From: a bacterium
GTDB lineage: Bacteria; Cyanobacteriota; Vampirovibrionia; Obscuribacterales; JAKAZS01
Length of the DNA stretch: 32,373 bases
Reading direction: 5' to 3'
Assembly: GCA_021815785.1 (NCBI GenBank)
Contig: JAKAZS010000034.1
Location: forward strand, 1-32,373
Shown: piece by piece, positions 16,533 through 32,373 of the stretch
Numbering within the stretch: the first letter of the stretch is position 1
Layout: each line of letters starts with the position of its first letter
The notes under the pieces: model-generated
What the model was told of the DNA's origin: nothing
Seen by the model: the letters and a program-made list of their open reading frames with translations, nothing else
The model's database searches: none
Program-made: the position numbers and the translations under genes

Positions 16533-16928
16533 ATGAATTACCAGGATCTTATTTATCAAGCTCAAATTGCTCATAATCGAGCTTATGTTCCTTATTCACA
16601 ACAAAAACTTGGCGTAAGCTTATTAACTAATCAGAATAATGTTTATTTGGGCTGTAGTGTTGAAATTGCTAATTTTGCATCTTCCCTGTGTCCAGTGGCA
16701 TTGGCTGTAGGACAGGCAATTTTAGCTTGCGATCAAGAGCTCAAAGCCTTGGCTTTATATCCCAAACTACATTTATCTGGCAATGCCAGGCAATTGCTGA
16801 TTGAATTTAATCCATTAATGGAAATAGTTTATTTAGATACCAATCAAAATTTGCAAATTAAAACCTTAAATGAATTATTGCCTTATTTTTTTGGGCCTAA
16901 AGATTTAAATATTCCTAATTTTTCCTGA
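16533..16928 (+). CDS. Cytidine deaminase-like protein lacking catalytic/zinc motifs (candidate pseudoenzyme)
   Basis: CDA-like landmarks YQDLIYQAQIAHNRAYVPYSQQKLGVSLLT, VYLGCSVEIANFASSLCP, ARQLLIEFNP, LNELLPYFFGPKDL. The usual CAE is CPV and the usual PCGxCRQ is LSGNARQ. Confidence 0.75.
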   Translation: MNYQDLIYQAQIAHNRAYVPYSQQKLGVSLLTNQNNVYLGCSVEIANFASSLCPVALAVGQAILACDQELKALALYPKLHLSGNARQLLIEFNPLMEIVYLDTNQNLQIKTLNELLPYFFGPKDLNIPNFS

Positions 16929-16948
16929 TTTTTTTTATAACTGATACC

Positions 16949-18490
16949 ATGAATAATACTGATTTAAAAGCTTTTGTTGATGAATTAATCCAATGTAATG
17001 AATTGGTTACGATTAATACTGAAGTAGATGCATATTTAGAAATTGCCGAAATTACTGATAGGGTTAGCAAAACTCCCGGTAAGCAAAACAAAGCATTGCT
17101 TTTTACAAATGTGAAGAATTATCAAATGCCGGTTTTAATTAATGCATTTGGGTCTGATAAACGAATTTGTATGGCTTTAGGAGTTGAAAAACTTGATGAT
17201 ATTGGTGTTCGGATTAAACAGTTACTTAAACCTAAAGTACCTGAAAATTTCCTGGATAAATTAGCTTTGCTACCGACTTTAATGGAAGTAGGCAAATTCC
17301 CCCCACAAATAGTTAATAAATCAGGTTCATGCCAGGAAGTGGTCTTAACTAATAGGGATGAACCAATGCTGGATACTTTGCCAATTATAACTTCCTGGCC
17401 TTATGATGCCGCTCCATTCATAACTTTAGGTGTTGTAATCACGCGGGATCCTAAATCGCAAATAAGAAATCTAGGCATATACCGAATGCAATATATTAAT
17501 AACAATACTTTAGCAATGCATTGGCATAAACATCATGATGGAGCTAGGCATTTTGAAAATCAACGAGAGCATGAATCGAGTGCGGTACCTTATATTGTCG
17601 AACCACCTAATTATGGTACTTTTTTTGATAATCACAAATATCAAGATCAAAATGTTAAATTAGAGGTAGCGGTGGTGATAGGTAGCGATCCAGCGGTAAC
17701 TTATGCAGCTTCAGCTCCATTACCTCCCGATATTGATGAGTTTTTGCTGGCCGGCTTTTTACGCAAAAAACCAGTTAAATTAGTTAAGTGTAAAACGGTT
17801 GATTTAGAAGTACCCAGTGATGCCCAAATAGTTATTGAAGGGTATGTTGATCAAGCACAATTAATTAATGAGGGTCCTTTTGGTGATCATACAGGTTTTT
17901 ACAGTTTGCCAGGTTTATTTCCGACTTTTCATGTTACGGCTGTAACGCATCAGGCTAAGCCAATTTATCAAACCACGATTGTTGGTAAGCCGCCGCAGGA
18001 AGACTGTTATCTTGGTAAAGCTACCGAAAGGATTTTTTTGCCAATGGTTCAGTTATTGGTACCAGAAATTGTTGATATGAATTTACCCTGGGAAGGCGTA
18101 TTTCATAATTGTGCAATTATTTCGATTAATAAACGTTATCCCGGTCAGGCTAAAAAGGTTATGAATGCTGTCTGGGGTTTAGGTCAGTTAATGTTTACTA
18201 AATTTGTGATTGTGGTTGACAAAGATATAAATGTGCATAACTTGTCGCAAGTTGCCTTAGTTGTTTTTGGTAATACCTGCCCCCGCCGTGATACCTTAAT
18301 TACTGATGGTCCTCTTGATATTTTAGATCATGCTAGCCCAATATTAGGGTATGGATCAAAAATGGGTATCGATGCAACTGTTAAATGGAAAGCTGAAGGT
18401 TGTAACCGTGATTGGCCGCAGCCAATTGTAATGTCAGCTGCTGTTAAAGAGTTAGTATCAGCTAAATGGTTGCAATATGGTATTGAATAA
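16949..18490 (+). CDS. UbiD-family (de)carboxylase
   Basis: NLGIYRMQYINNNTLAMHWHKHHDGARHF, IVIEGYVD...EGPFGDHTGFYS and KKVMNAVWGLGQLMFTKFVIVVD are typical of UbiD/prenylated-FMN decarboxylases. Confidence 0.93.
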   Translation: MNNTDLKAFVDELIQCNELVTINTEVDAYLEIAEITDRVSKTPGKQNKALLFTNVKNYQMPVLINAFGSDKRICMALGVEKLDDIGVRIKQLLKPKVPENFLDKLALLPTLMEVGKFPPQIVNKSGSCQEVVLTNRDEPMLDTLPIITSWPYDAAPFITLGVVITRDPKSQIRNLGIYRMQYINNNTLAMHWHKHHDGARHFENQREHESSAVPYIVEPPNYGTFFDNHKYQDQNVKLEVAVVIGSDPAVTYAASAPLPPDIDEFLLAGFLRKKPVKLVKCKTVDLEVPSDAQIVIEGYVDQAQLINEGPFGDHTGFYSLPGLFPTFHVTAVTHQAKPIYQTTIVGKPPQEDCYLGKATERIFLPMVQLLVPEIVDMNLPWEGVFHNCAIISINKRYPGQAKKVMNAVWGLGQLMFTKFVIVVDKDINVHNLSQVALVVFGNTCPRRDTLITDGPLDILDHASPILGYGSKMGIDATVKWKAEGCNRDWPQPIVMSAAVKELVSAKWLQYGIE

Positions 18491-18647: not shown

Positions 18648-21600
18648 ATGACTAAGAGCAATGTGGTAAATCATAAAAACTTTAATGTAATAAGGTCCCC
18701 TCAGCAAATGACTATAATAGATTGTTTAGTGGGTATGTCCAAGTTCCTGAATCATCGAATGGTATTAAATTTAAAGGTTTTAGCCTTAGCCATTATGTTG
18801 CCATTAACCCAATGTTCAACAGTCTATGCTCATGAAACTTCTACCAGTAACATGGGTGCTGCCAATCTTACCCATAATCATAATGAAACTCCTAATTATA
18901 TTAACGATGCAAGTCATGCCTTAGCTTCAATCAATCCGCAAATTGTTAATCCCAGTGTTGATATAAGTTCTATACTTCATAGTGTTGTTGAATCAAGTTT
19001 AAATCTAAATTCAGTGTTACATAATGTAAATTCTGGTCATTTAGTCCAGGATGTCACTTTAATTATTGGCAACCATAATCTTGAGGTTGGTAGTAATCAA
19101 GCCTTAACACCAGCTGAAGCTATTGCTTTAAGTCAGGTTTTAAGCACTAATCATCAAACTTTAGTTCTTGATGCCCTTGGACAAGGTGTAGGTGGTAGTT
19201 TAAATACTAGTTCTTTAGGTAGTCAAGTAAATAATCTAGAAGTGTCGTCCGGTGTTACTTTGGTTGACAACTCTAAAACCTTAATTTTAACTGGTAATTT
19301 AGCTAATTATGGTGATATCGTTTTTGGAGGTTCGGGAAATTTACAAGCCAATAACATATTAAATGAAGGCAGTGGCTTAATTAGTTCGAGTGGAACACTT
19401 GGTATTACTACCAATGCTTTAATTAATGAAGGCGGTATTTATGGGGCAAATGGTGTCAATATTAATGCCCCAGTTGTTTATAACGCTGGAACCGTTGAAT
19501 CGGCCTTAGGCAATATAAATATAGCTAATGCTAATATGCTTGATGTGACGGGAACGCAAAACAGTGTTTTTGAAGCTAATAATGGCAACATTAATATAGA
19601 TGTAAATGCAACATCTTTAAGTCAAGGTATGAATTTAGCTTATGGTAATTATTTAAGTAATGAATTAAATTTAAATGCTGGCAATGGCTTTGTTCAAGGG
19701 GTAACGGGCAATGTTAGCGGTCAGATTAATATCAATGCTAATAGTGCTCACTTGGCAACAGCTTCCAAAGATATGTTGCTTGGCAATGACTTGGTTAATG
19801 GCGATCCCACCTATGTTAATTTACTTGGTGATATATCATTAAATGGAGCGGTAACTACTAATGGTAATAATTTGGCTATTATTGCTAATGGCAATATTAA
19901 TGTTGCTACAGGAGGCATTGCTGCCTATGTTAATACAGGTTCAAGTACAGCTAACTCTGGTAATGTAGTTATGATTGCTGGTGTTGGTACTAATGTATCT
20001 GGTGGCAGTGTTAACTCGTCAACTATTCCAGTGGGCGGATCGCCAGCTACTTCTACCGTAACAGTAAGCCTTGGTTCAGCAACCGGTAATACTGGTGGTA
20101 ATATAGATTTAGTATCTAACAATAATCTGGCTACCAGTGTTGCCGTGATTAATACCGCATCAGCCTTTGCCAATGGCAATGGTGGTAACGTAACTTTATT
20201 AGCTCAAAGCAATGGATCTTCTGGTGGTGAGGTTATTACTAGTGCTGGTACAATTAACTATGGGATTGTAACAGGCGGTAATGGGACGGGTAATAATGGG
20301 AATGTAACGGTGATTGGTACGGCTAACAGTGGTACTGGTGTTAGTCTTGGCTATGTGACAACGACTGGTGGCGGTGGAACTGGTGGGGATGTCTCTATCT
20401 ATACAGCCAATCCAAGTGTTCAGTCGGTAGCTTTTGATACCACTGGATCAACTGCATCAATAATTACGGCGAATACGGCAAGTTTATCCCCATCATCCAT
20501 TGCTTTAAACGGTAATATTATTACTTCATCAGGTAATGGAATTATAACCATAAATTCTGGAGCTGGAATAACTAGTGGCACTAATCTTTTATCAGGAGCG
20601 AGCCTTGTAGTTAATGCAGTAAGTGGTGATTTTGGTGCTTTTAGCTCCAATGTTCAAACTAATGTTGGTGCTTTGACTTTAACTATTAATGGCAGCGCCT
20701 ATATTACTGATAATGCTAGTTTGGTTACAGTAAACAATAGTTCGGTTGGGTCTATCAGTAATTTTGAATTAATCATGAATAATGCTACAGCTGGTTCAAT
20801 TGATATAGTCGGGTTAGTGACCGCTGGCGCTGATAATGGAACTGGAACTATTATTTTAACTACTAGTGGCGCTGGGACAATTAATACATCTGGAGCTGGT
20901 AACGTCGCTCAAGCTGGTACTTTAATTTTAAATACCAGTGGCGGTGATATTGGCAATAATAGCCAATTTATGCAAATTGATACCAGTAATTTAAGTCTAA
21001 ATACCCTACATAATGGAGCAATTACTGGTAATGCTTACTTAATTAATGCAAATCTGCAGAGTACTAGTTTAAATACTTCTACTATTGGCAATAACAGTAT
21101 TTTATTCCTGGAAACTACTGGTGGTATAGTAGTTAATGGCTTAGTCGCAGCTGGTGGTATAAGTAATTTTGGTACTATCAACTTAAATGTTCAAGCGGGA
21201 ACGATAACTTCATCGGGCTCTGGAAGTATTTTGCAAGCTGGTGGTGAAGTACTTTTAAATACGGCTGGCGGTAATATTGGATCATCTAGTCAGGCGGTGT
21301 TAACCAACACTAGTAATTTGAATATCGGTACTTTAAATAGTGGATCTACAACCGGTAGTGCCTACGTAACTAACAGTAATCCTGGTGGTGTTACTCTGTT
21401 AGCTGGTTCGGTCGCAGCTAATGGCGTTTTACAGTTAACATCAGCTGGTAATATTGTAATTGACAATACAATTACCGCTGGAACGGATACAGGAACAGGT
21501 ACTATTAATTTAATTGCCAATGGTAGTGGCTCGATAACCACCCAAACTATTGGTCAGTTTTTACAGGCTGGGAACGTTAACCTTACCACTAATGGTAGTG

Positions 21601-24600
21601 ATATTGGCAGTTTAGCTCAAGGCTTTCAAGTTGATGCCAGCAATGTTGGGGTTACCACTGGTGGCGTAACTGGTAATGCTTTTATTCAAGATGCCCAGGC
21701 TTCAACTACAGTTAATATAACTATAACCCAAGCCATTGTTGGTGTGGTTAGTTCCGATACATTCGGTTTTAGTGGCGTAAATTCTAGTACTAGTAGTATA
21801 TTAACCGGATCTGGAGTAACGGTTCACTCACCAAATGTCATAATAGCTTCGGTTAATGGTAATATTGGTCTATCTGGCCAGGTTTTTGCTTTAAATTCAA
21901 CTGGGATAACTTTAAATGCAACATCTAATAGTGTTTTTGCTACCGATAGTGCCTCTGGTAATATTGTTTTTAATACGGTAACTGCACAAGGCCATCCGGT
22001 AACTAACGCTGTGGCTATGAATGGTGGTGGAACCTATCAGTTTACCGATACCAGTAATGGTAATTTACAGTCTGGTCTTGGTGTGGGTGTCATAAGCGGT
22101 AACTTTGTAAGTTTAACTTCAGCTTTAGGCGCTGTTGGTAATAATGTAAATGTTTTAAATGTTGATGCTAATAATTTAAATGTAAGCGCTGGAACTGATT
22201 CATACATTAGCAATAGCTCGGTCAGTGTTAACTTAAATGGAGTAACCGTAGGTGTTACCAATACATTTTCTTTAACCAGTTCGGGTAATGTTGTGGTAAA
22301 TGGAGTTGTTAGTGCTGGAGCCGATAGTGGTAGCGGCACTATTGATTTAAATACTACTTCAACGGGTACTATATCGACAACGCTAGGATCCTTAACTGAC
22401 ATATTAACTGCTGGAAACGTTAATTTAAGCACAAATGGCAGTGATGTTGGCAGTATCAGTCAAGGTCTATTAGTTGATGCTAATAATGTCGGGGTAACAA
22501 CTGGTGGAGTCACTGGCAATGCCTTTGTACAAGATGCCAGTGGTAATAATATTATAATCACGCAAGGCTTAGTTGGATCAGTTAGCACTGATACTTTTGG
22601 TTTTAGTGGAGTAAATTCCAGTACAACTGGCATAAATACTGCTACTGGCGTAACTATTACCGCTCCGAATATGATTGTTGTCTCAGTTAATGGCAATATA
22701 GGTACTGGTAGTGGACTTGGAGCGACGTTTAATGTTAATTCTAACAATGTATCTTTTATGGCTACGTCAAATAGTGTTTACGTGAATGATAATGCCAGTG
22801 GATTAATATCATTAGATACGATAACAGCTCAAGGACAAACCGTAACCAATGCAGCTGATATGAATGGTGGTGGAACCTATTACTTTAATGCCAGTAATTC
22901 AACCAGCGCTGGAAATTTATTAACTGGCAGTGGGGCTAGCATAAGTGGCAATAATGTAAATTTAAATAGTGATTTAGGTTATGTAGGTAGTAGCACTAAT
23001 GCATTGGCAGTAATTGCTAATAATTTAAGTACTAATGCTGGAACTGATTCTTATCTTAACGATAGTGTAACAACTAGTGTTAATTTAAACGCTAGTAATG
23101 TCGGCAGTTCTAACACTTTGAATTTAACCGCTTCTGGAGCGGTAATTGTTAATGGATTAGTCACAGCTGGTAGTGATAGCAGCACTGGTACAATTAATAT
23201 TTTTGCTAGTGGAACGATTAGTACCTTAACTGGATCAACCAGTGATTTATTAGTTGCTGGTAGTGTTAATTTAAATACCAGTTCAAATGGCAGTGATATT
23301 GGTAGTATCAATCAAGGTTTAATGGTTGATGCTAATAGTGTTGGTGTGACTACAGGTGGTGTCACTGGTAATGCTTATGTTGAAGATGTAAGTGCTAACA
23401 ATATAACTATAACTCAAGCTGTTGTTGGAATAGTTAGTACTGATACTTTTGGCTTTAGTGGCGTAAATTCAAGTACCACAAGTTTAACAACCGGTAGCGG
23501 AGTATCAATAACTGCTCCAAATATCCTAGTAGCTTCTGTTAATGGCAATATAGGTACCGGTAGTGGATCTGCCCAAACATTTAATGTTGATTCTAGCAAT
23601 GTCACTTTTAATGCAACATCTAACAGTGTTTATGTAAATGATTCTGCTAGTGGGATTATCTCATTCAATAATGTAACTGCTCAAAGCCAGAATGTTACCA
23701 ACGCTGCTGATTTAAATGGCGGTGGAACTTATTACTTTAATGCTAGTAATGCTACTACTGCTGGCAATTTAATAACTTCTCCAGGAGCTAATATAAGTGC
23801 TAAATATGTAGATTTAACTTCAGCTCTTGGCTCAATTGGTAGCAGCACCAATAATATATCCGTAAATGCCGCTAATTTAAGCCTAAATGCAGGAAGTGAT
23901 GCTTATGCTAACGATACCGCTGCAAGTGTTAATTTAAACGCATCGAGCGTTGGTGCAACTAATACTTTGCAGGTATTAACCCCTGGCAATTTAAATGTAA
24001 GTGGAGCGATTGCTGCTGGATCGTTAAGCGGAACTGGGACAGTTAATTTAACAGTCCAAGGTGGTAGTAATATAACGCAAACCCTAACTAATGGAACCAT
24101 TACTGCTGGTAATGTTAACTTGACTACTAGTGGTGGTTCAATTACAACATCGGCTAATATTGTTACCAATAACTTAAGTATGATAACAACTAGCGGTGGC
24201 GGTATAGCGATAAATTCAAAAGTTGGTGCAATTACTGGTACAACAACGCTTAATGCTAATGGCACAGGATATATAACCACTGGAACCGGAGGACTGGTTA
24301 TTGGTAATAGTTTAAATATGACAAGTACTGGTGGTGAAATTGGTTTTGGTGTAGGTGGATTACAACCATTATTGACTCAGGCTAATAGCTTAATGTTTAA
24401 TGCTGGGTTATCGGTAGGTATATTAAATGCAACTAACAATTTAAGTATAGGCACATCCGTATCCGGAGCTAATGTATATGTCGAAAATAGCGGAAATATG
24501 GTGGGAACAGGCACTATAACTGCACCAGTGGTTGGTTTATATTCGTTTTCGGGTAGTTCTGGAATAGGATCTGCTAGTAGTTTAATGCAAATAAATGCCC

Positions 24601-26480
24601 ATAATATTGGGCTAGAATCCTATGGAAGTGGATCAAGTGTCTATGTAAATGATACCTATACTGGAAGTACCGTAATGCAGGCCAGTCAAGCTATTAATAT
24701 CTTTAAATTAAATACCAATGGACCGCTTACCATTTATGCGCAAATTGATCAAAATGGAGTAGTAACACCAGGAATTATTGGCGGAACAATAATCGCCATT
24801 CAAACGCAAAGTGGATATGGTATATATAATGATGCTAGTATTCAGGCTAGCGATTTTATCTTTTTAACGGCTAGCCAAACTGGCTATATAGCTGAACCAG
24901 CTACTGGTGCTTTAATGATAGCGCCCAATATAAGTTTAGTTAGTGGTGGTGGTGCTATAGGAGCAGGCGGCAGGTTGTTATTAAACAGTGGACTTGTTGC
25001 CGCTTCAACCCAAGGCTTAAATAGCTTTGTTAATATTTATGATGAAGCTACTAATTCAGGAATTGTCGGTGGTCAGTCTGGGAGCTCATTTACCTTTAAT
25101 ACTAATGGTAATGTAAATGTAATTGGTTCGGTAGCAACTGGAGCTGGAGTTAAAGCTAATGGTGGAGCAATTAATATAAGTGGAAATGGCCTTATTAATA
25201 TAGGTACAACTAGTGGAATTAATGTAACTACCAATAATGGACCAATAGTTGTTCAGGATAATAACACAGCTAGTGGAGTTATCCAAATTGCTAAAGGTGA
25301 CTATATTTATACTAATACACCGGTAAATACTGCTGGTTATGTAGTATTTAATATTGGAAATTATACTCAAGTTAATAACTCTAATCCTAATCCAGTTAAT
25401 ATAACTGTGCAATCTAGTGGTGGAGCTAGCGTTTATTTTGGTACGCATGGTATAGCTACATTAGGTGGAGGCAATGTGTTAAATGCTAAAGGTCAGTCGA
25501 TCGTATTTAATACTGGAGCTTTAAGTGCTAATGCGATAACTTTAGGTGGCAGTTTGAGTATAACAGCTGATCCACCTGTAGCTGTGGTAGCAAGCTCTGG
25601 AGTAGTTGCTCTTCAAAATAATGTAGCCTTATTAGGATTAGCTGGTGCTAATGGTAATGCACAAGCTGGAATCAGTCAAAGTACAGTTAATGTATTAGAT
25701 AACAATCAGGCTACCTTAAATACTAATTCTTTAAATAGTGATTCTAGCCAAAATCCCGATTCGGGATATTTAGGATATAACAATATTGATAATAATGAAA
25801 TGGTTGCTAATACGTCAATTTATATGCCTATAAGTTATAAGGCTGAAGTTAGTGATGTTGCAATTTCTCAAACGGCTAACAGCATAATGAATTTAAGTCA
25901 TAATGCAAAAGCTAATGGTCGTAGCTTAAATTTGAACGAGGGTAGTGATAATGTTGCCTTGGCTCATGGAAGTGCAATTATTCGATCCAGCCACGATTTA
26001 AATATAGTATTAGGCACAAAGAATCCAATTCAAGTAAAGCTTAAACGAGGAGCTATTGTTTTAGCAATTGCCAACGGTAATGTTGTAAGTGTTTATAATT
26101 TACATGATAATGCAGCTTCAAGTGTGGTTATAAAAGCAAATGACAATAAATTAATTTCGTTAACTCCAGGCCATCAGGCAACTTTAGCTAAAATAAATCA
26201 ATCACTTGATTTTGCTTATGTTAATCAAGTGAGTAAAATTGGTTACCGAGCTATTAAAGCAGTTAAAGAGGTTAATTATGTGTCTTATACTTCAGACTTT
26301 TCGATACCTAGTGCTATTATTGCGATTAAACCATTAAAAGCAATGTTTGCAAGTAGTAATCGCAAAGTTAAGGCTATAGCGCAGCAGTTATTAAAAACCA
26401 GTGTAGTGGTAACGCAAAGCACAAGTGGTAGTGGTGTTTATGAACAGGTTACCAAACCTAAATTAACGGCTATGAATTAG
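18648..26480 (+). CDS. Giant repetitive surface/secreted protein (predicted beta-solenoid, filamentous-haemagglutinin-like), 2610 aa, with FecR-like C-terminal region
   Basis: Signal-like segment LKVLALAIMLPLTQCSTVYAHE. Long Asn/Gly/Ser/Thr/Val-rich repeats (GNVNLSTNGSDVGS, DTFGFSGVNSST, SVNGNIGTGSG). C-terminus VKLKRGAIVLAIANGNVVSVYNLHD...LISLTPGHQATL. Confidence 0.9.
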   Translation: MTKSNVVNHKNFNVIRSPQQMTIIDCLVGMSKFLNHRMVLNLKVLALAIMLPLTQCSTVYAHETSTSNMGAANLTHNHNETPNYINDASHALASINPQIVNPSVDISSILHSVVESSLNLNSVLHNVNSGHLVQDVTLIIGNHNLEVGSNQALTPAEAIALSQVLSTNHQTLVLDALGQGVGGSLNTSSLGSQVNNLEVSSGVTLVDNSKTLILTGNLANYGDIVFGGSGNLQANNILNEGSGLISSSGTLGITTNALINEGGIYGANGVNINAPVVYNAGTVESALGNINIANANMLDVTGTQNSVFEANNGNINIDVNATSLSQGMNLAYGNYLSNELNLNAGNGFVQGVTGNVSGQININANSAHLATASKDMLLGNDLVNGDPTYVNLLGDISLNGAVTTNGNNLAIIANGNINVATGGIAAYVNTGSSTANSGNVVMIAGVGTNVSGGSVNSSTIPVGGSPATSTVTVSLGSATGNTGGNIDLVSNNNLATSVAVINTASAFANGNGGNVTLLAQSNGSSGGEVITSAGTINYGIVTGGNGTGNNGNVTVIGTANSGTGVSLGYVTTTGGGGTGGDVSIYTANPSVQSVAFDTTGSTASIITANTASLSPSSIALNGNIITSSGNGIITINSGAGITSGTNLLSGASLVVNAVSGDFGAFSSNVQTNVGALTLTINGSAYITDNASLVTVNNSSVGSISNFELIMNNATAGSIDIVGLVTAGADNGTGTIILTTSGAGTINTSGAGNVAQAGTLILNTSGGDIGNNSQFMQIDTSNLSLNTLHNGAITGNAYLINANLQSTSLNTSTIGNNSILFLETTGGIVVNGLVAAGGISNFGTINLNVQAGTITSSGSGSILQAGGEVLLNTAGGNIGSSSQAVLTNTSNLNIGTLNSGSTTGSAYVTNSNPGGVTLLAGSVAANGVLQLTSAGNIVIDNTITAGTDTGTGTINLIANGSGSITTQTIGQFLQAGNVNLTTNGSDIGSLAQGFQVDASNVGVTTGGVTGNAFIQDAQASTTVNITITQAIVGVVSSDTFGFSGVNSSTSSILTGSGVTVHSPNVIIASVNGNIGLSGQVFALNSTGITLNATSNSVFATDSASGNIVFNTVTAQGHPVTNAVAMNGGGTYQFTDTSNGNLQSGLGVGVISGNFVSLTSALGAVGNNVNVLNVDANNLNVSAGTDSYISNSSVSVNLNGVTVGVTNTFSLTSSGNVVVNGVVSAGADSGSGTIDLNTTSTGTISTTLGSLTDILTAGNVNLSTNGSDVGSISQGLLVDANNVGVTTGGVTGNAFVQDASGNNIIITQGLVGSVSTDTFGFSGVNSSTTGINTATGVTITAPNMIVVSVNGNIGTGSGLGATFNVNSNNVSFMATSNSVYVNDNASGLISLDTITAQGQTVTNAADMNGGGTYYFNASNSTSAGNLLTGSGASISGNNVNLNSDLGYVGSSTNALAVIANNLSTNAGTDSYLNDSVTTSVNLNASNVGSSNTLNLTASGAVIVNGLVTAGSDSSTGTINIFASGTISTLTGSTSDLLVAGSVNLNTSSNGSDIGSINQGLMVDANSVGVTTGGVTGNAYVEDVSANNITITQAVVGIVSTDTFGFSGVNSSTTSLTTGSGVSITAPNILVASVNGNIGTGSGSAQTFNVDSSNVTFNATSNSVYVNDSASGIISFNNVTAQSQNVTNAADLNGGGTYYFNASNATTAGNLITSPGANISAKYVDLTSALGSIGSSTNNISVNAANLSLNAGSDAYANDTAASVNLNASSVGATNTLQVLTPGNLNVSGAIAAGSLSGTGTVNLTVQGGSNITQTLTNGTITAGNVNLTTSGGSITTSANIVTNNLSMITTSGGGIAINSKVGAITGTTTLNANGTGYITTGTGGLVIGNSLNMTSTGGEIGFGVGGLQPLLTQANSLMFNAGLSVGILNATNNLSIGTSVSGANVYVENSGNMVGTGTITAPVVGLYSFSGSSGIGSASSLMQINAHNIGLESYGSGSSVYVNDTYTGSTVMQASQAINIFKLNTNGPLTIYAQIDQNGVVTPGIIGGTIIAIQTQSGYGIYNDASIQASDFIFLTASQTGYIAEPATGALMIAPNISLVSGGGAIGAGGRLLLNSGLVAASTQGLNSFVNIYDEATNSGIVGGQSGSSFTFNTNGNVNVIGSVATGAGVKANGGAINISGNGLINIGTTSGINVTTNNGPIVVQDNNTASGVIQIAKGDYIYTNTPVNTAGYVVFNIGNYTQVNNSNPNPVNITVQSSGGASVYFGTHGIATLGGGNVLNAKGQSIVFNTGALSANAITLGGSLSITADPPVAVVASSGVVALQNNVALLGLAGANGNAQAGISQSTVNVLDNNQATLNTNSLNSDSSQNPDSGYLGYNNIDNNEMVANTSIYMPISYKAEVSDVAISQTANSIMNLSHNAKANGRSLNLNEGSDNVALAHGSAIIRSSHDLNIVLGTKNPIQVKLKRGAIVLAIANGNVVSVYNLHDNAASSVVIKANDNKLISLTPGHQATLAKINQSLDFAYVNQVSKIGYRAIKAVKEVNYVSYTSDFSIPSAIIAIKPLKAMFASSNRKVKAIAQQLLKTSVVVTQSTSGSGVYEQVTKPKLTAMN

Positions 26481-26507
26481 TATCTTTCAATTTATTTGAA
26501 AATTATT

Positions 26508-26541
26508 TAAAGAGGCTTTATCTAATGATAAAGCCTCTTTA
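26508..26541. terminator. Bidirectional terminator-like hairpin after the first giant gene
   Basis: taaagaggctttat - ctaatg - ataaagcctcttta, 14-bp perfect stem, AT-rich flanks. Confidence 0.75.
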
Positions 26542-26613
26542 AATATGATATTTTTATTGAAGCTTACGAATATTGACAATTGCAAATGCTGGTATAAATA
26601 CAGTGTAGATTTT

Positions 26614-26745: not shown

Positions 26746-26975
26746 ACTGTTTTGAATTAAATAAAAATAATCATTAATTTTAGTCAGCGTTGTATTAACT
26801 TATCTTTTTTGAAAGTGTTTCTAATTTTTAGATGTTTATGTCCAGTTTTTTTTTACATTAATAATTTTCCCTTAACTAAAATTAAGAATCCTTTCTGAAT
26901 TCTTTCAGTACAATCCTTTAATACTCTATTACCATAGTTTAGGAAATTTATTTTTGCGTAGGAGCTAAAAATCAA

Positions 26976-29900
26976 ATGACAATCAACAACAATAATTCCA
27001 TTGTCAAAAATGACACGATAATTAATTATAATGACGTTAATATCATTGTTCAGAAGGTTGCAAAACAGATACATCTTGGGCAGCAACACTTATCGTCAAA
27101 GCATAGCCTGGTCAAAAAGCTTACGGTTTTTCTACTAGCTCTTATGCTTCCGTTAAGCCAATCGGCTTGCGTATTAGCTAATGAAATTGGCGCTAGTAAT
27201 GCCTCTGCCACAGCTGCTGCCAGTCATCATCATAACGTAGAAGCTCCTAACTACGTTACTGCTGCTGCCCATGCTGTTGCTACAATTAATCCTAGCGTTG
27301 TCAATCCTAATGTTGAAATAAATTCAATCCTGCACAGTGTTGTAAATTCAAGTTTAGACTTAAGCTCAGTCTTGCACAATGTTAACGTTGGCGCTCTAAG
27401 TCATGACGTTTCGATAATGGCCGGCAACCATAACTTAGAAGTATCCAGCAATCAAGCTTTAACCCCAGCCGAGGCTCTTGTTGTTAGCCAGGTGTTGGCC
27501 ACTAATCACCAGACTTTAGTGCTTGACGCCTTAGGTCAAGCTACTAGTGGTAGTTTAAACGCTAGTACGCTAGGCAATACTGTAAATAATTTACAGGTTA
27601 GCAGAGGTGTGACTTTGGTTGATAACTCTAAAGCATTAACGCTAACCGGAAATCTTGCCAACTACGGCGACATAGTATTTTCTGGCAGCGGTAATTTAAC
27701 TGCTAACAATATATTAAATGAAAGCGGAGCGCAAATATCAGCTAACGGAGTCTTAGGCCTTACCACCCATGAACTTATCAATGAAGGTGGAATTTATGGA
27801 TCTAATGGCGTTAATATAAATGCATCTTTTATATACAATTCGGCGACGGTCGAAGCTGGCTTAGGCAGTATTAATATAGCTAGCGTTAACGCACTTGACA
27901 TTACAGGGGCGCAAAACAGCGTTTTTGAGGCGACCAACGGCAATATAAATGTAGATGTCTCAGCTAATTCTTTAGCTAGCGGAATGAATTTGGCATTTGG
28001 TAATTATTTAAGCAATGAATTAAATTTAAATGCTGGCAGTGGATATATTCAAGGGTCTACTGGCAATGTTACTGGTCAAATTAATATCAATGCCGACAGT
28101 GCGCATTTAGCTTCTGCCGCAAAAGATATGTTACTAGGCAATGACCTGGTTAAAGGTGACCCTACTTATGTAAATACAGCTGGAAATATTACTATAAATG
28201 GTGCGGTAACGTCAACTGGTGCTAACTTGGCTATAATTGCTAGCGGCAATATAAATGTAGCTAGTGGTACAACGGCAACCATAAATACTCAAGGTACTAC
28301 ATCAGCTGGTGGAAATTTAGTTATGATTGCTGGTTTAGGTACTAATGTATCTGGTGGTGGTGCTAATTCGTCAACTATTCCAACGGGTGGATCGCCAGCT
28401 ACTTCTACCGTAACAGTAAGCCTTGGTGCTACATCAGGCAACGCTGGCGGCAATATTGATTTGGTCAATGGTAATACAGGTTTAACGCCAGGCTTAAATG
28501 TTATAACCACAGCTGGCAATGGTACCAATACCGCTGGCGGGTCGGTAACTTTAATAGCTGTGCCAAATAGTATAACCGGTAGTGGCGGTCAGATTTTAAC
28601 GAGCAACGGGACAACTAGCTTTGGTATTGATACAAGTGGAACAGGTTCAGCTTATAACGGAAACGTTTTAATTGTAGCTGGTGGTTTATCGTCTGGCTTG
28701 GCCGTTGAATTGGGATCCGTTACTACAACGTCAACTGGTGAAACCGGTGGTGGTGGTAACGTGAGTATTTATTCAGCTACGCCTAGTGTCCAGACCGTTA
28801 ATTTTGATACCACGGGAACTCAAAGCGCTGCTATAACCGTTAATACATCTAATTTGGTTACATCTGATATAGTAATCAACGGTAATATTACCGCACCCAA
28901 TGTAACAGCTAGCGGTGTTGTGACTTTGGCTACTGGTGGCCAAATACTTATGGGAGCCAACACGATAACTGGTAATACACTTAATGTTTCTGATGGTCTT
29001 GGTAATTTTGGAAGTCTTGGTACTAATGTATCACTGGATGTTAGCTATTTAAGTGTTAATGTAGCTAACGGCTCGGCTTATTTATCTAGCCCGGGTTCTG
29101 TAACTGTAAATACATCAGCCGTTTCATCAGGTGGTTTCTTTTATCTACGTTCAAATAATAATATTACACTAAACGGAACGATTACAGCTGGGTCTGCTAA
29201 TGGATCGGGGATTATTGGCTTGGTTACTCTGACTGGAAATATTGCCCAAAATTCTAACGCCGATGTCTTAACGGCTGGTAACGTCAGCTTAACAGCAAAT
29301 TCTGATATCGGTTCGACTACTAACAATATTTATATTGATACAGCTTCCGCTTCGATTGTAGTAGCTACACCAGGCTTAGCTAATGTTTATGTTAGCGATA
29401 ACTATACTGGTAACGTAAATTTTGCTGGTGCAACGACACCTACCACATCAGGAAATTTTGATTTTTCAACCCTGGGTAATTTAGTTATTAATAGCAGTTT
29501 TAACATGGGGTCCGACAATTCGGCCAGTGTATTGCAGTTACAAGCTAACGGAAGTATTATTCAAGGGTCAGTACCACCTAATACACCTTATATACTTACG
29601 GCTGGAACTGTTAACTTGCTAACCAATGGTGGAAATATAGGCAGTTTAAACAATAATGTAGTCATCGACGCTGATACCGTTAATATTTCTACTGGTGGCC
29701 TTTCAGGTAGTTCATATGTATTTGATAACAGTCCAAATGACATATTAATCAACCAGGCTACTGTTGGTTCGGCTAGCAATGATGTTTTTGCCTTTACGGG
29801 CCTTAATGGTTCTACTACATATATAACCGAAGCCACTGGTTTAGTAATTACGGCTGGTCAGGTAATTATTGCTTCACAAAATGGTAATATTGGGCTTGGC

Positions 29901-32373
29901 TCAAGTTTATTTAATATAGATTCAAATTTAGTCACTTTAAACGCAACTTCAAATAATGTTTACGTAAACGACACTGCCAGTGGCAATATCACATTAACCA
30001 ACGTTTTGGCTCAAGGCAATAATGTCGGTAATGCAGCAGCTGGTTTATTTGAGTTTAACGCCACAAATGCTACAACGGCTGGTAATATAGAAACCGCAAC
30101 CGGGGCTAGTATAAACGCTCCAAGTATTATATTAAATTCCGTAATTGGTTCTATTGGCAATAGTACCAGCGCTGTAAATGTGAATACGAATAAACTTACT
30201 CAAACTAGTAGTAATTTAACATTAACTAGCGCTCAAGGCGCTTATATTGCGGATAGTTCTACTAATTCATTAAATTTATTAGCTTCAAATGTTGGTAACA
30301 ATCAAACGTTAGAATTAAGCAACGCCAGTTCAATAGTTGTAAGTGGCTTAGTTCAAGCGGGCAGCGATAGTGGTAGTGGGAGTATTAGCTTGACAGTTAA
30401 TGGAACTGGAACAGTAACCACTTTAGCAACTGGCGATAATTTACAGGCTGGAACGGTTAGTGTAACCACAACTGGTGGGAATATTGGATTTCTAGGCGCT
30501 AATTTATTAGTTGATGCTGGTTTATTAAGTGTCAATACGGGTCTAACTGTAAACACGGCTAGTGCCTATGTAAATAATACTTATACCGGTCAAATGAGTT
30601 TAGACTCTAGCCAGGTAGGTAATTCTGGAACACTAGACATTGTAGCTACTGGTGGTATTTTAGTTGGTGGTTTTGTTACAGCCGGCAGTGCTAGTGGGAC
30701 AGGCGTAATTGATTTAAGTGCCAATGGAACTGGTAGCATAAGTTCTATAGCTAGTTTAACGGCTGGAACCGTTAATTTAACTACAACTGGTGGCAATATT
30801 GGCAACAGTGCTAATGCTATTATTGTTGACAGTAGTGCGTTGAGTGTAAATACTGGCAGCATTTCAACAATAGCTAGCGCCTATGTAACTGATATATTTA
30901 CCGGTAGTTTAGTGCTAAATGCTAGTTCAGTTGGCAGTTTAGGAACGTTAGATGTAGCTTCTAATGGATCGATGGTTGTAAGTGGAGTGATTTCAGCTGG
31001 AAGTGACACAGGCTTAGGTGTGATTAATTTAACTACTAGTGGAGCGGGTGGCGGTATCACACAGGCTGCTCTAACCGATACAATAACAGCTGGTAGTGTA
31101 AGTTTATTAACGACTGGCGGTAATATAGGTTCAAGCACAACTGACTTAGCCGTTAATGCTAATACTTTAAGTGTTAATACTGGCACTAGTAATATGACTG
31201 CTAGCGCTTATGTTAGCGATGCCTATACAGGCAGTTTAAGTTTAAAAGATAGTCAGGTAGGTGACAGTGGAACGTTGAGTTTGTCAGCTAGTGGAGCTAT
31301 TGCTTTAAGCGGGCCTATTACAGCTGGGGTCGATAGTGGATCGGGAACTATTAATTTAACTGCAAGTGGTGGAGTTAATGGAACAATTACCCAATTAACG
31401 ATTAGTGATTTACCAACAGCTGGAACCGTCAATTTAGTAACAGCGGGTGGTAATATTGGATCTTTAGCTAATATTTTAACCATCGATACCGATAATTTAA
31501 GTGTAAATACAGGTAATACCGTAACCACGGCTAGCGCTTATTTAACAGATAGTAATATTGATAATGTTAATCTAAACGCAAGCTCAGTCGGTTCAGCTGG
31601 AACATTAGATATAACAGCAGCTAATGGAATTGTAGTTAATGGAGTTATCGCAGCTGGATTCGATAATGGTTCTGGTGTTATTAATTTAACAGCTGGTGGT
31701 ACTGGAGCAATAACGCAAGCGTTGTTATTAAATTATCTGCAAGCTGGCAATATAAGTTTAGTTACAGACGGTGGTAATATTGGTTCACCAAGTAATGACG
31801 TAACTATCGATAGTAATTTTGTTAGCATTTCAACTGGTGGCTCGACAGGTAGCGCTTACGTATCTGATAATAGCCCTAATACTATAACGATAAATCAGGC
31901 TCTTGTTGGAACAGCTAATGGCGATATTTTTGTTTTTTCTGGCTTTAATAGTTCAACAACCAGTATTTTAGAAGGCAGTGGGGTCGAAATAACAGCCCCG
32001 CAAGCTGTAATAGTTTCGGTTAACGGCAATATTGGTACGAGTGCTAGCTTATTTAATATTGATTCTAACCTGGTAACCTTAAACACCACTTCTAATAGCG
32101 TATATGCAAATGATAGTGCCAGTGGAGCTATCGTTTTGACCAATTTTAACGGACAGGGAAATTTAGTTAATAATGCAGCTGCTGGTATTTATGAGTTTAA
32201 CGCCACAAATGCTACAATGGCTGGTAATATAGAAACCGCAACCGGAGCTAGTATAAACGCTCCAAGTATTATATTAAATTCCGTAATTGGTTCTATTGGC
32301 AATAGTACCAGCGCTGTAAATGTGAATACGAATAAACTTACTCAAACTAGTAGTAATTTAACATTAACTAGCG
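26976..32373 (+). CDS. Second giant repetitive surface/secreted protein, paralogue of 18648-26480, 3'-truncated by the window end
   Basis: Manual translation from ATG 26976 (ggag upstream) runs without a stop to the window end: MTINNNNSIVKNDTIINYNDVNIIVQKVAKQIHLGQQHLSSKHSLVKKLTVFLLALMLPLSQSACVLANE... and aligns with the first giant protein over its N-terminus. Confidence 0.92.
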   Translation, partial: MTINNNNSIVKNDTIINYNDVNIIVQKVAKQIHLGQQHLSSKHSLVKKLTVFLLALMLPLSQSACVLANEIGASNASATAAASHHHNVEAPNYVTAAAHAVATINPSVVNPNVEINSILHSVVNSSLDLSSVLHNVNVGALSHDVSIMAGNHNLEVSSNQALTPAEALVVSQVLATNHQTLVLDALGQATSGSLNASTLGNTVNNLQVSRGVTLVDNSKALTLTGNLANYGDIVFSGSGNLTANNILNESGAQISANGVLGLTTHELINEGGIYGSNGVNINASFIYNSATVEAGLGSINIASVNALDITGAQNSVFEATNGNINVDVSANSLASGMNLAFGNYLSNELNLNAGSGYIQGSTGNVTGQININADSAHLASAAKDMLLGNDLVKGDPTYVNTAGNITINGAVTSTGANLAIIASGNINVASGTTATINTQGTTSAGGNLVMIAGLGTNVSGGGANSSTIPTGGSPATSTVTVSLGATSGNAGGNIDLVNGNTGLTPGLNVITTAGNGTNTAGGSVTLIAVPNSITGSGGQILTSNGTTSFGIDTSGTGSAYNGNVLIVAGGLSSGLAVELGSVTTTSTGETGGGGNVSIYSATPSVQTVNFDTTGTQSAAITVNTSNLVTSDIVINGNITAPNVTASGVVTLATGGQILMGANTITGNTLNVSDGLGNFGSLGTNVSLDVSYLSVNVANGSAYLSSPGSVTVNTSAVSSGGFFYLRSNNNITLNGTITAGSANGSGIIGLVTLTGNIAQNSNADVLTAGNVSLTANSDIGSTTNNIYIDTASASIVVATPGLANVYVSDNYTGNVNFAGATTPTTSGNFDFSTLGNLVINSSFNMGSDNSASVLQLQANGSIIQGSVPPNTPYILTAGTVNLLTNGGNIGSLNNNVVIDADTVNISTGGLSGSSYVFDNSPNDILINQATVGSASNDVFAFTGLNGSTTYITEATGLVITAGQVIIASQNGNIGLGSSLFNIDSNLVTLNATSNNVYVNDTASGNITLTNVLAQGNNVGNAAAGLFEFNATNATTAGNIETATGASINAPSIILNSVIGSIGNSTSAVNVNTNKLTQTSSNLTLTSAQGAYIADSSTNSLNLLASNVGNNQTLELSNASSIVVSGLVQAGSDSGSGSISLTVNGTGTVTTLATGDNLQAGTVSVTTTGGNIGFLGANLLVDAGLLSVNTGLTVNTASAYVNNTYTGQMSLDSSQVGNSGTLDIVATGGILVGGFVTAGSASGTGVIDLSANGTGSISSIASLTAGTVNLTTTGGNIGNSANAIIVDSSALSVNTGSISTIASAYVTDIFTGSLVLNASSVGSLGTLDVASNGSMVVSGVISAGSDTGLGVINLTTSGAGGGITQAALTDTITAGSVSLLTTGGNIGSSTTDLAVNANTLSVNTGTSNMTASAYVSDAYTGSLSLKDSQVGDSGTLSLSASGAIALSGPITAGVDSGSGTINLTASGGVNGTITQLTISDLPTAGTVNLVTAGGNIGSLANILTIDTDNLSVNTGNTVTTASAYLTDSNIDNVNLNASSVGSAGTLDITAANGIVVNGVIAAGFDNGSGVINLTAGGTGAITQALLLNYLQAGNISLVTDGGNIGSPSNDVTIDSNFVSISTGGSTGSAYVSDNSPNTITINQALVGTANGDIFVFSGFNSSTTSILEGSGVEITAPQAVIVSVNGNIGTSASLFNIDSNLVTLNTTSNSVYANDSASGAIVLTNFNGQGNLVNNAAAGIYEFNATNATMAGNIETATGASINAPSIILNSVIGSIGNSTSAVNVNTNKLTQTSSNLTLTS
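30051..30231 (+). repeat. Copy 1 of a 181-bp near-identical direct repeat inside the second giant gene
   Basis: gagtttaacgccacaaatgctacaacggctgg...ttaacattaactagcg; two mismatches by eye against 32193-32373. Confidence 0.92.
32193..32373 (+). repeat. Copy 2 of the 181-bp near-identical direct repeat, cut by the window end
   Basis: Same sequence at an offset of 2142 bp (714 codons, in frame). Confidence 0.92.

Follow-up and report, generated by a model that had tools for sequence, protein, structure and literature searches.

The window, the whole stretch of DNA that was analysed, is 32,373 nucleotides long and constitutes contig C41 of an assembly of 2.9 Mb in 144 contigs that is 94% complete. 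Two giant genes occupy its 3' part, both on the plus strand, and the second runs off the end of the contig:

18648..26480, plus strand: upstream complete paralogue of 2610 amino acids (ORF listing, alignment)
26504..26545, plus strand: intrinsic terminator between the two giants, with a near-perfect 19-bp stem and a T-rich tail (folding, z -8.0)
26960..26964, plus strand: AGGAG ribosome-binding site, 11 nt 5' of ATG 26976 (read in the sequence)
26976..32373, plus strand: 5' part of the giant ORF, 1799 codons, free of stops to the contig end (translation)

Re-translation of the plus frame from the ATG at 26976 to position 32372, at the end of the window, yields 1799 residues and no in-frame stop. 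The same interval holds 196 and 228 stops in the other two forward frames, and the probability of an open frame of 1799 codons arising by chance at the local base composition corresponds to a log10 P of ~ -54. The nearest in-frame stop upstream of the ATG is the TAG at 26940-26942. In the contig-wide listing the open frame measures 1810 amino acids and ends at the end of C41. Synonymous divergence exceeds replacement divergence several-fold in all three comparisons: against the upstream paralogue (pS 0.70, pN 0.17), the closest same-genus relative (pS 0.67, pN 0.11), and a truncated paralogue on contig C129 (pS 0.49, pN 0.08). As judged from these alignments, the giant ORF evolves under strong protein constraint. 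Because the long stop-free frame coincides with a ribosome-binding site and an excess of synonymous change, 26976-32372 is a real gene.

The sequence-only reading had described a giant gene missing from the supplied ORF list, and the open frame, the codon constraint, and the position of the contig end bear out an unlisted gene truncated at its 3' end. Its suggestion that the frame was dropped for want of a stop agrees with the listing, which contains run-off ORFs only when open ends are allowed; the frame at 26976 appears once they are permitted. The proposed extension past 32373 ends at once, since the window is the complete contig and holds no further bases. It is hardly credible that misassembled repeats have produced the giant ORF as a chimera or an artefact. 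The family to which it belongs is repetitive and breaks contigs; however, such an origin is contradicted by 1799 codons without a stop or frameshift, by purifying selection, by closely similar sequences found in independent assemblies from different assemblers, and by the existence of complete paralogues, for example that at 18648-26480.

The upstream giant was correctly recognized from the letters alone as a paralogue: the two proteins are 43% identical over 1863 alignment columns, and ~74% identical in the N-terminal domain. The two giants are probably separate transcription units because of the strong terminator at 26504-26545. Just upstream of them, at 16533-18490, are cytidine deaminase-like and UbiD-family genes. 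In a genome of the same genus (G001, L048), no giants follow the orthologous ubiD gene, and its next downstream neighbour is an unrelated restriction-endonuclease-like ORF (gene names were read from translations). The giants are missing at the orthologous spot in this one genome, which implies gain or loss of the pair at that site.

The end of the contig coincides with a repeat internal to the gene:

30105..30231, plus strand: 127-bp exact repeat, copy 1 (sequence self-comparison)
32247..32373, plus strand: 127-bp exact repeat, copy 2, the final base of which is the final base of the contig (sequence self-comparison)
30257..30379, plus strand: 123 bp shared without mismatch with the first bases of contig C90 (read in reverse), in frame and 25 nt past the 127-bp repeat (sequence match)

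The two 127-bp tracts are offset by 2142 bp, which is divisible by three, and lie within an array of ~110-residue modules. The very end of the contig is also where their identity stops, and the two copies are preceded by different bases. With its final base C41 completes an exact 127-bp repeat, and the absence of a stop is therefore due to a break in the assembly. We infer that the assembly graph, built from short reads, broke here because the repeat equals the k-mer in length (k near 127).

Searches with the ORF, the N-terminal domain, and the C-terminal domain identified about 27 open frames of the family in this genome, the smallest being halves a few hundred residues long and the largest genes reaching ~6,340 amino acids. 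Their lengths add up to ~49,800 residues, equivalent to roughly 150 kb and ~5% of the genome. Fourteen of the frames are halves located at contig ends: seven 3'-open front halves (on C41, C129, C21, C10, C50, C132, and C110) and seven 5'-open back halves (on C99, C45, C11, C93, C140, C9, and C90). The family giants are a main cause of the fragmentation of the assembly.

The end sequence of C41 is absent from the other contigs of the genome, with C90 containing only a 70% match. Among the seven back halves, C90 alone matches C41 at its start. The frame of C90 stays open for 1894 residues and reaches the complete family C-terminus with a full C-terminal domain. Taken together, the assembled sequences make it likely that the giant gene continues from C41 into C90, with a 25-nt gap between them, and strongly suggest a joined protein of about 1799 + 8 + 1894 = ~3,700 amino acids. 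Contigs C9, C11, C45, C93, C99, and C140 were rejected as continuations, since the start of none of them matches C41. The sole other match between front and back halves is a short glycine-rich similarity of C45 and C132. Synteny was uninformative about the join in G001 and G002; in G002, the MoxR/DUF58 operon that adjoins the gene of C90 is followed by a thiolase gene (names read from translations).

The part of the protein encoded in the window is composed of a signal peptide, a conserved N-terminal domain, and a repeat stalk:

26976..27182, plus strand: putative extended signal peptide with a ~47-residue polar n-region, KK, the hydrophobic core TVFLLALMLPLSQSACVLA, and a probable cleavage site VLA-NE (translation, by eye)
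27171..28325, plus strand: conserved N-terminal domain, residues 66-450 (family alignments, model, Foldseek)
29600..31812, plus strand: repeat stalk with six copies of a 71-nt reference segment (repeat search, identity profile at offset 2142)

The N-terminal hydrophobic segment would fit an extended Sec signal. Residues 66-450 are predicted to form a parallel β-helix with two leading helices (pLDDT 84, pTM 0.83). In a Foldseek search of the PDB with the model, TPS secretion domains headed the ranking, and those of EtpA (8cpk, prob 0.99), HMW1 (2odl, 0.72), and HxuA (4i84, 0.63) were all within the top five folds. The scores are weak, with a best E of 0.046, TM-scores of at most 0.38, and high rmsd, and therefore only the β-helix class and the ranking of TPS domains carry weight. 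The N-terminal domain appears from its model to have the same class of fold as TPS domains, a resemblance short of proof of homology. The NPNG motif, the role of which in TPS domains has been described (PMC5422565), is absent from the N-terminal domain alignment, where NEGG, NQG, or NTG is found at a possibly equivalent site. The TPS family PF05860 matched neither of the giants and none of 16 N-terminal domains. It was also unmatched across 40 genomes, a weak test since the control genomes gave no match either. In the stalk, the last five 71-nt copies are spaced by 315-330 bp, which corresponds to modules of ~105-110 residues, and the modules sit inside a higher-order periodicity of 2142 bp (714 residues).

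Complete family members end in a FecR-like β domain and a conserved helical tail. The truncated gene should end in the same C-terminal region, which lies beyond the part of the ORF in the window and was analysed in the upstream paralogue:

25650..26477, plus strand: C-terminal region of the upstream paralogue (family alignments, model, Foldseek)

The FecR-like β domain of this protein spans ~25950-26189 and is followed by the helical tail, which extends to 26477. The model of the region has pLDDT values mostly of 72-94 over residues 101-270. Foldseek aligned ~85 residues of it to 4m0h (prob 1.00, E 0.011) and to PupR (6ovk, prob 0.95, E 0.17). Among the PDB matches listed, those at ranks 1 and 7 alone exceed a prob of 0.9, and both are FecR-family proteins. 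The C-terminal domain of the family is thus predicted to adopt a FecR-like fold. The Pfam FecR family (PF04773) gave no match in 10 C-terminal regions. The 12-strand β-barrel translocator of classical (type Va) autotransporters was not found, as the C-terminus models as a small FecR-like domain and helices. Nor is there a variable C-terminal toxin module of the CDI or polymorphic toxin kind, since the C-terminus is conserved between the paralogues to the last residues. Toxin families of Pfam had no significant match in 10 C-terminal regions, and no recurring neighbour gene that could encode an immunity protein lies beside the giants. Frames of ~250-305 residues containing the FecR-like domain are present in relatives (e.g. 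G004:C16, G006:C5, G016:C163, and G026:C1), and the domain may exist as a stand-alone protein.

The family spans most of the order, which is probably Obscuribacterales (Melainabacteria). The N-terminal domain is found in 26 of 40 genomes of the order and the C-terminal domain in 30, and their copy numbers covary over the 40 genomes (Spearman 0.92); 26 genomes contain both domains, 10 neither, and none the N-terminal domain only. Relatives occur in the unclassified bacterial MAG DBS1-2.bin46, the Candidatus Melainabacteria MAG clean1587, and Cyanobacteria bacterium SZAS LIN-3. No relatives were found in viral contigs, phages, or plasmids, and the family therefore shows no sign of mobility on such elements. 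Scans of both giants with Pfam and NCBIfam gave no significant match, and profile searches of PDB sequences gave none. Sporadic weak Pfam matches of the N- and C-terminal domain sets to HAMP_2, Fil_haemagg, and M23 were rejected as chance.

TPS proteins pass the outer membrane through a dedicated TpsB protein carrying POTRA domains (PMC5422565). Profile searches of the genome containing the window identified one Omp85 and one POTRA_2 protein, which are the same protein:

L073:2773-4854: the genome's sole Omp85 protein, in which PF07244 matches three POTRA repeats and POTRA_2 matches as well

Its gene adjoins OmpH-like, LpxD-like, and LpxC genes. Because of the POTRA repeats and the OmpH-LpxD-LpxC cluster, the sole Omp85 protein is the essential BamA; the presence of BamA, the OmpH-like chaperone, and LpxD and LpxC shows that the genome has an LPS-type outer membrane. 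Almost all of the 39 relatives contain exactly one Omp85 protein, whatever their number of giants, including genomes with dozens of N-terminal domain matches. Four genomes deviate in the Omp85 search: G019 has two partial matches, and G029, G033, and G037 lack any. The POTRA_2 search gave one weak match in G029 and no match in G033 or G037. A dedicated TpsB partner was thus not found by the Omp85 and POTRA_2 searches in the genome or the order. The ShlB model PF03865 had no match in the genome, but it carries little weight as it had none in the control genomes. No neighbour gene recurs beside the giants as a candidate exporter. The genomes of the order seem to lack the usual TPS export partner.

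It is unlikely that the giant is an ordinary TpsA exoprotein whose TpsB was missed by the searches or is encoded in the few percent of the genome that the assembly lacks. The TPS-like fold of the N-terminal domain, the extended signal peptide, the haemagglutinin-like repeats, and an assembly that is 94% complete are in line with this explanation. However, the single Omp85/POTRA_2 protein is BamA and nearly all 39 relatives have one each; the lack of a PF05860 match, weak as it is given the unmatched controls, and of a recurring neighbour gene points the same way.

The giants resemble the TPS exoproteins HMW1, HxuA, and EtpA in their Sec signal with a long n-region, N-terminal β-helix, repeat stalk, and very large size. 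They differ in having no sequence match to the Pfam TPS family or to a solved structure, a looser N-x-G in place of NPNG, no TpsB in the genome or order, and an end formed by the FecR-like domain and helical tail. The family is TPS-adhesin-like in shape and falls outside formal TPS membership on the features tested. The C-terminal β domain shares its fold with the periplasmic domains of FecR and PupR, whereas the giants lack the cytoplasmic anti-sigma part and a Pfam FecR match, and their domain comes at the end of a giant exported stalk, with a conserved tail specific to the family behind it.

A periplasmic or envelope-internal scaffold, exported by Sec and never crossing the outer membrane, is a rather improbable alternative. 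The searches yielded no outer-membrane exporter, and the FecR-like matches in the PDB come from FecR and PupR domains, which belong to envelope signalling proteins. A solenoid of 3,700 to 6,300 residues, however, far exceeds the width of the periplasm, and the N-terminal domain resembles outer-membrane secretion domains.

The ORF forms the front of a real giant gene, which probably encodes a large surface adhesin or filament with a TPS-like export domain. An extended signal peptide would direct the protein to Sec for export. Its N-terminus would cross the outer membrane first, with the TPS-like β-helix leading and seeding folding, and the stalk would extend as a long β-solenoid of ~110-residue modules. 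The FecR-like domain and helical tail may be retained on the side of the cell, where they would anchor the protein or signal a stop. The passage could use BamA or an exporter outside the families searched. We tentatively speculate that TpsB-free export of giant TPS-like proteins, dozens per genome, operates throughout the order, via BamA or a transporter whose kind is so far unrecognised, and that the FecR-like module serves as an anchoring or recognition element. Repeat exchange among modules and paralogues might generate variants in length and sequence. The giants would function as surface adhesins or filaments of a bacterium that belongs to the cyanobacterial line, is diderm, and does not photosynthesize. 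Apilactobacillus kunkeei has consecutive genes for giant extracellular surface proteins, Giant1-5, which make up about 5-6% of its genome (PMC12863079). The two systems are alike in the presence of several giant surface-protein genes and in their share of the genome; A. kunkeei is a lactic acid bacterium with consecutive genes, whereas here the host is diderm and the genes are mostly scattered.

The truncation itself is ordinary, an effect of the assembly. The interest lies in the family, which is order-wide, unmodelled in family databases, TPS-like at the front, and FecR-like at the back, with no recognisable partner. Occupying ~5% of the genome, causing many assembly breaks, and having no Pfam or NCBIfam model, its genes are easily cut, mis-called, or omitted in draft genomes from this group. 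If TPS-like export with BamA alone is true, the family would provide a test case for very large β-solenoids crossing the outer membrane without a partner. The giants are obvious candidates for attachment to surfaces or cells in these uncultured cyanobacterial relatives.
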